Source of the DNA: Lentisphaerota bacterium
Lineage (GTDB): Bacteria; Verrucomicrobiota; Kiritimatiellia; JAAZAB01
DNA length: 64,000 bases
Direction of reading: 5' to 3'
NCBI GenBank assembly: GCA_016188985.1
Contig: JACPGM010000006.1
Location: 1 to 64,000, forward strand
The notes beneath the pieces were generated by a model that searched no databases, was not told the DNA's origin, and worked only from the letters and a program-made list of their open reading frames with translations. Below, piece after piece: positions 5,059-63,653 of the stretch. Positions within the stretch are counted from its first letter, which is position 1. Each line of letters starts with the position of its first letter. The translations under genes were made by a program, and so were the position numbers.

Positions 5059-6534
5059 ATGGGCAATAAAATCCTGTTTGTAATCGTCGCCGCACTTGGC
5101 GTCTATTTAGTCATGCACGGCATCGGCCGGCTCCCGACTTTGGGTCTGTTGGGGGTCATCGTGTTTTTTGCGGCCTTGGCTATATCGTTTGTGCGCGGCA
5201 CCGCTGCGCTCTATATCATCATTTTTGCTATGCTCTTCAGCCCCGAGGTTTGGACACCCCTGGCGACGGGCCGGACGGCGGGCGCTGAGGGCGCCGCCGG
5301 CGCCGGAACTATTATCGTGCGGCTGGAGGATCTCATTTTGATCGCGGTGGGCTGCGGCTGGCTGCTGCGCACGGCTTACCAGAAGCGGCAGTTCGGCATC
5401 ATGAGCACCCCGGTGAATCCGGCCATCTGGTTTTACATTGCGACCTTTGTTGTGGCGACCATGCTGGGCGTTCTGGGCGGCACGGTGCGTCTGGAAGCCG
5501 GCATAGTCCACAACCTGAAATTCTGCGAATATTTTTTTCTGTTCTTCATGATCCTGGCGCATGTGCGTAAAAAGGAGATTATCGGCAAAATGCTGGCGGC
5601 CATGCTGGTGGCGTTCTTCGTGGCCATGCTTTATGCCTATACCCAGATGGAATGGAGCGGCGCCAAGCGGCTCGTGGCGCCGTATGATGATGAACCCAAC
5701 ACCTTTGGCGGTTATATTGTTTTGCTCATGTGCCTGGCCGCGGGCATCGCCCTGACCGACCAGCGCCCCCGGGTGCGTGTGCCGTTGGTTCTCTTGTTGC
5801 TTCTGGCCTTGCCGCCCCTGTTGTTCACCCTGTCGCGGGCGGGTTACACGGCCTTCATTGCCGGCGTCCTGGCCTTTCTGGCGTTGAGTCAACAGCGCAT
5901 TATTATCGGCGCTTTGACGATCGGGTTGGTGGCGGCGCTGGTGATGTCGGTCGCGCTGCTGCCGGCGAGCGTGCAGCAGCGCATCGCCGGAACCTTCCGA
6001 ACGGAAACGCAATTTAAGGCGCAAATGGCCAACCTAAGTCCTGAGGCTAAACGTTTGGTCGAGGCCGCGCGGATTGGGTCCGCGGAAGACTATTATGCGC
6101 GCGTCGCCGGCATTGAGTTGGATTCTTCGACCGCGGCCAGGATTTTCTCCTACCAGATTGCGCTCAAAGCGTGGGAGGAAAACCCTTTTTTGGGCAAGGG
6201 TGTTACCGGGACGCACTTTATTGACAGCCAGTATTTCCGGATGCTGGCCGAGACCGGCCTTATCGGGCTGGGCGCCTTCCTTTTCATGATCTGGCGACTG
6301 TTGCGCTCCGTCTGGCAGGTCTATGGCCAGTGCCAGGAGCCGTTCTTAAAAGGCGCGGCGCTGGGATTGGTTTGCGGGATAATTGCCACCATGGCGCATG
6401 CCATCACGGCCAACAGTTTCATTATCATCCGCATTGCCGAGCCACTCTGGCTGTTGGCCGGCTTGATCCTGCTCGTTCCCCAGCTAAAAGAAACGGGGGA
6501 AACAACCGCGAGCGCCGAGCTTTACAGTTCATAG
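5059..6534 (+). CDS. O-antigen ligase/polymerase-family membrane protein (Wzy/WaaL-like)
   Basis: Multiple TM segments, LFTLSRAGYTAFIAGVLAFL, NPFLGKGVTGTHFIDSQYFRMLAETGLIG. Confidence 0.85.
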   Translation: MGNKILFVIVAALGVYLVMHGIGRLPTLGLLGVIVFFAALAISFVRGTAALYIIIFAMLFSPEVWTPLATGRTAGAEGAAGAGTIIVRLEDLILIAVGCGWLLRTAYQKRQFGIMSTPVNPAIWFYIATFVVATMLGVLGGTVRLEAGIVHNLKFCEYFFLFFMILAHVRKKEIIGKMLAAMLVAFFVAMLYAYTQMEWSGAKRLVAPYDDEPNTFGGYIVLLMCLAAGIALTDQRPRVRVPLVLLLLLALPPLLFTLSRAGYTAFIAGVLAFLALSQQRIIIGALTIGLVAALVMSVALLPASVQQRIAGTFRTETQFKAQMANLSPEAKRLVEAARIGSAEDYYARVAGIELDSSTAARIFSYQIALKAWEENPFLGKGVTGTHFIDSQYFRMLAETGLIGLGAFLFMIWRLLRSVWQVYGQCQEPFLKGAALGLVCGIIATMAHAITANSFIIIRIAEPLWLLAGLILLVPQLKETGETTASAELYSS

Positions 6535-15685: not shown

Positions 15686-15917
15686 GCAGGGCGAATTTTG
15701 TTTTCCGCAGCAGCGGATCCGCTATGGCGGAGAAAAAGGCGGCGGTGATTCCGGCTCATCTGTGCTACTCTGCGAAGTAGCTTCGCTACGTAGCACGAGC
15801 GGGTTTCCCGCCCTCGCGCATACACGAGTATGGCGCTTCGCGCGGCGCACCCGCATCTGAGCCGGACTGACCATGCTTTTTCAAATCCCGCTACGCGGGA
15901 AGCGAAATTCGCCCTGC
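15686..15917. mobile_element. MITE-like inverted-repeat element (13-bp perfect termini gcagggcgaattt / aaattcgccctgc)
   Basis: Perfect terminal inverted repeats with nested palindromes inside; no clear target duplication. Confidence 0.55.
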
Positions 15918-17862: not shown

Positions 17863-17903
17863 GGCTTTCTTGTATTGCGGATTGGAACCTATCTAAAAAA
17901 ATC

Positions 17904-18139
17904 GTGACTGTTCAGGTCGTCAAGAAATGAAACTACGAAAAACGCGAAAGGCGCGAAAATGGGAAATAGAATTGTATTCAATTTCGCGTATTTTGCGCAT
18001 TTCGTAGTTCCCGCCACAGGCGGGTCTGCCTAAGGCATGATCCACCTCAGGCGGACTCGTGCTTCGTAGCGAAGGTTTACTTCGCAGAGTAGCATCCGCC
18101 AAGGGCGGAAATTGTTTTCTCAGATAGCTGAGTAGTTAC
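17904..18139. mobile_element. MITE-like GTRAC-family element, copy c (with ~100-bp nested insert)
   Basis: Ends gtgactgttcagg / ctgagtagttac; 8-bp target duplication aaaaaatc at 17896-17903 and 18140-18147. Confidence 0.9.
18010..18109. repeat. Nested GC-rich palindromic insert
   Basis: Absent from paralogous element 29628-29764. Confidence 0.8.
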
Positions 18140-18180
18140 AAAAAATCGAGCCCGGTTCCATATTATCTGGCTATGCCGGT

Positions 18181-29627: not shown

Positions 29628-29764
29628 GTAACTGTTCGGGTCGTCGAGAAATGCAACTACGAAACACGCGAAAGGCACGAAAATGGTAATGGAAATTGCA
29701 CCCAAGTTTCGCGTATTTTGCGCATTTCGTAGTTAATTGTGTTCTCAGATAGCTGAGTAGTTAC
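29628..29764. mobile_element. MITE-like GTRAC-family element, copy d
   Basis: 137 bp; ends gtaactgttc / gagtagttac; 8-bp target duplication tttagatc at 29620-29627 and 29765-29772; empty-site paralog at 33865. Confidence 0.93.
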
Positions 29765-62762: not shown

Positions 62763-62894
62763 GGCCGCGCCCGCCTGCCCGCAACGCTTCCCGATTCTAT
62801 CGGGATGCGGGGCAGGTAAGGGCGTGGATTCTTCCGGCAGCCACGGCGTTCCCGCCAGAGGCGGGTCCGCCTATGGTGGAACCGCCGCGGCTAC
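62763..62894. repeat. REP-like palindrome with nested hairpin inserts
   Basis: ggccgcgccc [gcctgcccgcaacgc...gcggggcagg] ...cttccggcagccacggcgttcc...accgccgcggctac. Confidence 0.75.
62840..62894 (+). repeat. 55-bp direct repeat flanking RAYT, copy 1
   Basis: gccacggcgttcccgccagaggcgggtccgcctatggtggaaccgccgcggctac, identical to 63599-63653. Confidence 0.95.
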
Positions 62895-63598: not shown

Positions 63599-63653
63599 GC
63601 CACGGCGTTCCCGCCAGAGGCGGGTCCGCCTATGGTGGAACCGCCGCGGCTAC
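63599..63653 (+). repeat. 55-bp direct repeat flanking RAYT, copy 2
   Basis: Identical to 62840-62894. Confidence 0.95.

Follow-up and report, generated by a model that had tools for sequence, protein, structure and literature searches.

Three small hairpin-forming units nested in a MITE of a Lentisphaerota bacterium

Results

A MITE copy with a 100-nt block

The window, that is the whole 64,000-nucleotide stretch of DNA analysed here, contains at 17904-18139 a MITE copy (copy c) whose sequence is interrupted by a block of three hairpin-forming units, named A, B and C. A second copy in the window, copy d, is empty at the same junction. The features are the following.

17896-17903: left target-site duplication of the MITE, AAAAAATC, identical to 18140-18147
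17904-18139, + strand: MITE copy c, with imperfect terminal inverted repeats GTGACTGTTCAG / CTGAGTAGTTAC
17931-18009: inner arms of the MITE core, 31 nt each, 81% complementary, with 17 nt between them
18010-18040, + strand: unit A, 31 nt, CCCGCC-ACA-GGCGGG + TCTGCC-TAA-GGCATGA; 70 exact copies in the genome
18041-18055, + strand: first hairpin of unit B, TCCACC-TCA-GGCGGA; B alone (29-30 nt) occupies the junction in 11 copies
18056-18094, + strand: unit C, 39 nt, CTCG followed by an imperfect hairpin, lodged between the B hairpins; found 25 times in the genome
18095-18109, + strand: second hairpin of unit B, TCCGCC-AAG-GGCGGA
18140-18147: right target-site duplication of the MITE, AAAAAATC, matching the left copy
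29628-29764, + strand: MITE copy d, empty at the junction

The outer element is unremarkable for a MITE: its terminal inverted repeats are imperfect, it is flanked by an 8-bp duplication, and its core, without inserts, measures about 137 bp. We parsed 41 copies; the element shows the terminal inverted repeat GTRACTRCTCAG and, in copy c and many others, a duplication of constant length, as expected of a MITE. Examples of the 8-bp duplications at other copies are TTTAGATC, AACCGAAC, GATTTCTG and TTTATAAC. An IS66 parent was considered for the MITE and set aside: the IS66 transposase domain PF03050 has no match in the window's own genome, which is 85.7% complete.

Alignment of copy c (17904-18139) with copy d (29628-29764) leaves a single clean gap of 100 columns, 18010-18109, bounded by GTAGTT on the left and AATTG on the right. 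The initial annotation of this DNA had described an extra block in copy c with exactly these coordinates and ends, and the alignment agrees with it. The annotation had also taken the 100 nt for one palindromic insert, which does not hold: the block is composed of A (31 nt), the left half of B (15 nt), C (39 nt) and the right half of B (15 nt), and it represents three insertions of discrete hairpin units. The inner palindrome reported at the time does exist, as unit C, but its host is B and not one long palindrome. The nesting of at least two layers is likewise real: from the outside inwards, the chromosome contains the MITE, the MITE contains B and B contains C, with A placed against the left edge of B.

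Anatomy of the units

Unit A (18010-18040, CCCGCCACAGGCGGG TCTGCCTAAGGCATGA) is made of two abutting hairpins of 15-16 nt each, with 3-nt loops and an unpaired T in the second hairpin. Unit B has the same design over its 30 nt, 18041-18055 (TCCACCTCAGGCGGA) plus 18095-18109 (TCCGCCAAGGGCGGA), and unit C (18056-18094, CTCGTGCTTCGTAGCGAAGGTTTACTTCGCAGAGTAGCA) sits exactly between its two hairpins. Upon folding, C forms a single imperfect hairpin with a 4-nt 5' tail. A search of the window in Rfam for known RNA gave no match.

The closing pair of the first hairpin of A is T-A in 109 cases and C-G in 27, with 4 exceptions; it therefore covaries, at the one position where covariation could be read with a search pattern that fixed the inner stems. 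One long cruciform was rejected for unit A, whose loops show no covariation with one another across genomes, although one copy with complementary loops prefers, in DNA folding, a single long hairpin to the double one.

Insert states across the MITE family

A comparison of MITE copies, as proposed in the initial annotation, shows that the junction is filled in unit-sized steps. Among 41 distinct copies, 15 are empty, 11 carry B (29-30 nt), 10 carry A+B (60-61 nt), one carries B+C (69 nt) and four carry A+B+C (100 nt); neither A alone nor C alone was seen at the junction of these copies. A block present in most copies, and deleted from d, had been named as the pattern that would speak against insertion; the whole block occurs in only 4 of the 41. 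Additional insertions of A are found at TTT^CGCG, in the left or the right arm of other MITE copies.

The steps could also be read as the remains of a composite, either the whole 100 bp or the 61 nt of A+B, that arrived at once and lost pieces later. In its favour, A+B with the C-G form of A is found outside the MITE (L045, L194, L198, L207, L214, L216 and L217), and A+B may sometimes move as a four-hairpin unit. On the other hand, B alone and B+C occur at the junction, and A and C are found without B elsewhere; we consider a one-step origin of the block unlikely.

On a tree of the MITE cores, which is weak with its ~137 positions, the insert states require as many changes as shuffled labels do. 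They look random on this tree and we could read no insertion order from it. Nearest-neighbour cores share the same insert state in 11 of 38 cases, against 9.8 expected, and two cores that are 99.3% identical differ fully in their inserts: L020 has A in an arm and B at the junction, L316 has neither. Such scrambled states fit repeated insertion, precise loss or gene conversion.

One further MITE copy, L030 (G000:C84, near 5336-5366), contains two A sites that apparently recombined, with the intervening stretch deleted. Its unit A carries the rare T/G closing combination.

Insertion of discrete units outside the MITE

Units A and C are found at many places outside MITEs with unchanged ends. In the genome, a MAG of 3.09 Mb, the 30-nt pattern of unit A occurs at 107 places (with at most 3 mismatches; 70 are exact over 31 nt) and unit C at 25. 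Chance is excluded for both, because the control patterns, reversed in the case of A, occur at none. All three units are discrete: their ends are fixed and they recur elsewhere.

An orthologous locus in two sister species, G045 (L309) and G055 (L297), is 82% identical over 2.7 kb and contains the same MITE in both. In G055, B occupies the same MITE junction and the MITE loop holds an A-like unit, both of which G045 lacks. In the window's own genome, B+C contributes 69 nt, or 23 in-frame codons (L061 1486-1554, G000:C13), to a 268-aa ORF (C13:20787-21590) with no Pfam match. Exactly those 23 residues are absent from its same-genus orthologues in G021, G045, G055 and G074.

Empty sites, defined as a 24-nt junction with at most 2 mismatches, were retrieved for 16 of 93 A insertions and for none in four permutations; those of L122, L154 and L179 match perfectly. 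Junctions for which a matching empty site is seen are seamless: nothing is duplicated and nothing is lost.

These data bear directly on the opposite scenario, in which the 100-nt block is ancestral and was lost from copy d and others by slippage or short-repeat recombination. Hairpin copies do seem to recombine, and L030 resembles the product of a deletion between two A sites. However, the lengths of the units are all-or-none, and units with the same ends stand in unrelated contexts. We favour insertion over deletion because same-ended units occur outside the MITE, the orthologous MITE copy of G045 is empty and lacks B, and the in-frame addition of 23 residues is absent from four orthologues; the first two observations also sustain insertion against the pattern named in the initial annotation. 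The deletion scenario is largely refuted and we hold it for highly improbable.

Three hairpin-forming sequences, of 30, 31 and 39 nt, thus entered the MITE of copy c separately, with C inside B. Serial insertion of discrete mobile hairpin units, leaving the enzyme aside, is very probably what happened here, with the mobility of the units inferred from sequence comparison. The tree on ~137 positions limits this reading, and gene conversion between copies could also shuffle the states. Were gene conversion the only process, merely swapping states among MITE copies with the hairpins now immobile, the scrambling of insert state relative to the core would be explained, but not the insertions found elsewhere, at different sites, within other repeats, inside a gene and in further phyla; we judge this restricted version improbable.

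Target sites

Unit A mostly has (A)TTT on its left. At 66 distinct sites, T occupies position -2 in 58 (1.1 bits), and ATTT is the commonest flank (13 of 66) but is not fixed. The right flank is weaker, with no position above 0.45 bits. An inverted repeat surrounds 25 of 75 unit A sites, against 3.4 expected (permutation maximum, 9), and 21 of 28 distinct unit C sites lie at or near the centre of a palindrome, against 7.0 in permutations (maximum, 12). Both units thus reside in palindrome centres or loops above chance.

Several hairpin-in-hairpin arrangements were observed individually. Unit C lies inside CTGGATTCCCGA...TCGGGAATGAC palindromes at L070, L076, L080, L089-L091, L093, L095, L097 and L098, in the window's own genome and in same-genus genomes; one repeat class is therefore a recurrent host site. 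Within the window, a related 30-nt double hairpin, CCCGCCAGAGGCGGGTCCGCCTATGGTGGA, is placed at 62852-62881 and 63611-63640 (+ strand) in the loops of two GTAG-headed hairpins (GTAGCCGCGGCG...CGCCGTGGC on the - strand). Versions of these hosts with a plain short loop occur at L077 and L224; position 47852 of the window (- strand) has a related one. The GTAG-headed hairpins GTAGCCGCGCCGG...GGCGTGG at L072, L007 and L224 hold in their loop another inner hairpin, approximately CCGCCTGCAACGCTGTGCGTAGCACTGCGGGCAGG, with variants. A 37-nt variant of unit C, CTCGTGCTACGTAGCGAAGCTACTTCGCAGAGTAGCA, is found at 15763-15799 of the window (- strand), with a degenerate double hairpin resembling B close by, at about 15704-15731.

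Distribution among genomes and phyla

The 30-nt pattern of unit A is found in at least 93 stretches of named GTDB genomes, from at least 11 phyla. Among the matches listed, carriers include Patescibacteria (many groups), Planctomycetota with Brocadiaceae, Verrucomicrobia/Lentisphaerales/Kiritimatiellaeota, Omnitrophota, Elusimicrobia, Cloacimonadota, Stahlbacteria/WOR-3, WOR-1, Firestonebacteria, Zixiibacteriota and Deltaproteobacteria. The 46 carrier genomes taken from these matches have 1-15 copies of unit A each, at no more than 1 mismatch. The distribution is patchy: in the window's class, 8 of 97 sampled genomes carry unit A (five from the window's own genus, counting its own genome, two from its family and one other), and unit C is present in 7 of 288 genomes. 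Identical 31-mers of unit A make up 52% of within-genome pairs and 2.4% of pairs between genomes; copies therefore multiply inside genomes.

The named carriers among the matches listed are all MAGs, by title or bin name, which raises the question of an assembly or library artefact. The loop variants are nevertheless genome-specific, the flanks are orthologous in sister species, one placement is in frame in a gene and the carriers come from many independent studies; an artefact is scarcely credible.

A viral or plasmid vehicle was also considered and finds no support: IMG/VR gave no exact match, and one 31-mer had no match in phage and plasmid collections; blastn with so short a query is insensitive. 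The literature searched, which did not extend to subscription papers, yielded no description of the 31-nt family or of such repeats in these phyla. Judging by their titles and abstracts, none of the papers containing the core 12-13-mers is apparently about such repeats.

Discussion

Relation to known elements

IS200/IS605 elements have hairpin ends and insert seamlessly, without duplication, 3' of a short target (PMC6006769). The units share the seamless insertion without target duplication, as seen from the exact 24-nt empty sites and the G045/G055 pair; they differ from non-autonomous derivatives of these elements in having no transposase in cis, and no guide or cleavage-site pair was recognised in them. 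Nostoc is reported by Elhai et al. (2008) to contain small dispersed repeats, very small mobile sequences of ~20-30 nt, some of them inside other repeats. These are confined to Cyanobacteria, and we set them apart from the present units by description, not by sequence.

REP/REPIN sequences, mobilised by RAYT (TnpA_REP), are likewise short imperfect hairpins of 21-65 nt, numerous in a genome, non-autonomous and often composite, and the window's own genome also has GTAG-headed hairpins. A REP hairpin has at its foot a GTAG/GTGG, CGTC or CnGA tetranucleotide (PMC6006769, PMC3733652). Units A-C have no such foot, the left flank of A being mostly (A)TTT; in addition, they do not adjoin Y1 genes, they insert into other hairpins and the 31-nt sequence is common to many phyla. 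A REPtron arrangement, with copies flanking a tnpA_REP gene, was rejected after a scan of 59 Y1 loci that returned one degenerate match near a Y1 fragment.

The double-hairpin elements of Allomyces mitochondria, the RHE of sponges and the GC clusters of yeast likewise consist of one or two hairpins, with loop variation and merging of units. Like the mitochondrial double-hairpin element, unit A consists of two neighbouring hairpins whose stems are conserved and whose loops vary. The Allomyces elements have no target duplication, and mitochondrial hairpin elements are known to occupy one homologous site either singly or in merged form (PMC2800124, PMC4478555). The present units differ in occurring in bacterial MAG chromosomes with identical stems across phyla, and yeast GC clusters differ in being flanked by short repeats (AG or ACT). 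Rickettsia palindromic elements reside both in intergenic DNA and within protein genes, where they are in frame (PMC2229807), and one case here, of 23 codons, resembles them in this respect. They are, however, 105-146 bp long and specific to Rickettsia (PMC2229807), whereas the units described here measure 30-39 nt, belong to other phyla and nest in one another. The kind of element is thus already known from REP/REPIN and the mitochondrial double-hairpin elements; we place the 31-nt family in none of these groups, since features that define them were looked for and not found.

A possible mechanism

Units A-C would be mobile but non-autonomous elements, travelling as single strands in folded form. 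They would be excised seamlessly and inserted 3' of a short target, approximately ATTT or GTT for unit A, wherever single-stranded DNA is exposed, for instance in hairpin loops or on the lagging-strand template. The enzyme would act in trans. The MITE would be mobilised independently by another transposase, carrying its hairpins along.

As the enzyme, we tentatively propose an HUH/Y1 transposase of the IS200/IS605-RAYT kind, the likeliest class although we give it somewhat less than an even chance. IS200/IS605 elements are transposed as single strands by Y1 enzymes (PMC6006769), and the seamless junction, the one-sided, short and T-rich target, the bulged hairpins and the preference for hairpin loops seen here resemble that process. 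Of the 46 carrier genomes, 40 have Y1 genes, and within the window's family 9 of 10 genomes do. Six of the 46 carriers, one of them of the window's own genus, have no Y1 match, in MAGs that are incomplete. In the window's own genome, Y1 is represented by a single gene of 298 aa and a fragment. Intact unit A was not found beside Y1 genes at 59 Y1 loci (168 kb, some loci counted twice), and no transposase linked to unit A was found. The sole proximity among these loci is a degenerate unit A in the own genome (L193 1053-1083), ~420 nt from a truncated, RAYT-like Y1 fragment at the contig end (L193 1471-1683).

RNA-mediated insertion and another hairpin-reading recombinase are alternatives to Y1. 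Insertion through reverse transcription was proposed for the Allomyces double-hairpin elements on the basis of their lack of flanking duplications (PMC2800124). The hairpins studied here are stable and target duplication is also absent, but targeting that is centred on loops, T-rich and asymmetric better suits insertion of single-stranded DNA; the RNA route seems to us rather improbable.

It is possible, with similar reserve as for the Y1 assignment, that the 31-nt double hairpin is a complete cis-acting mobile unit, moving horizontally between phyla of uncultured bacteria. A resident enzyme would recognise it as folded single-stranded DNA and prefer the loops of palindromes, such that hairpins accumulate in hairpins and occasionally add codons to genes.

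Significance

If the readings given here are right, the units are among the smallest mobile DNA units known from bacteria. They would also be near-unchanged in at least 11 phyla, which is unusual since REP-like repeats are mostly lineage-specific. The MITE family offers a natural series, empty, B, A+B, B+C and A+B+C, in which order, target choice and reversibility can be put to the test. Single-stranded DNA is indicated as the substrate by the empty sites, which are exact and centred on palindromes. Units of this kind can add codons to genes, and they could serve to trace gene flow among uncultured bacteria.
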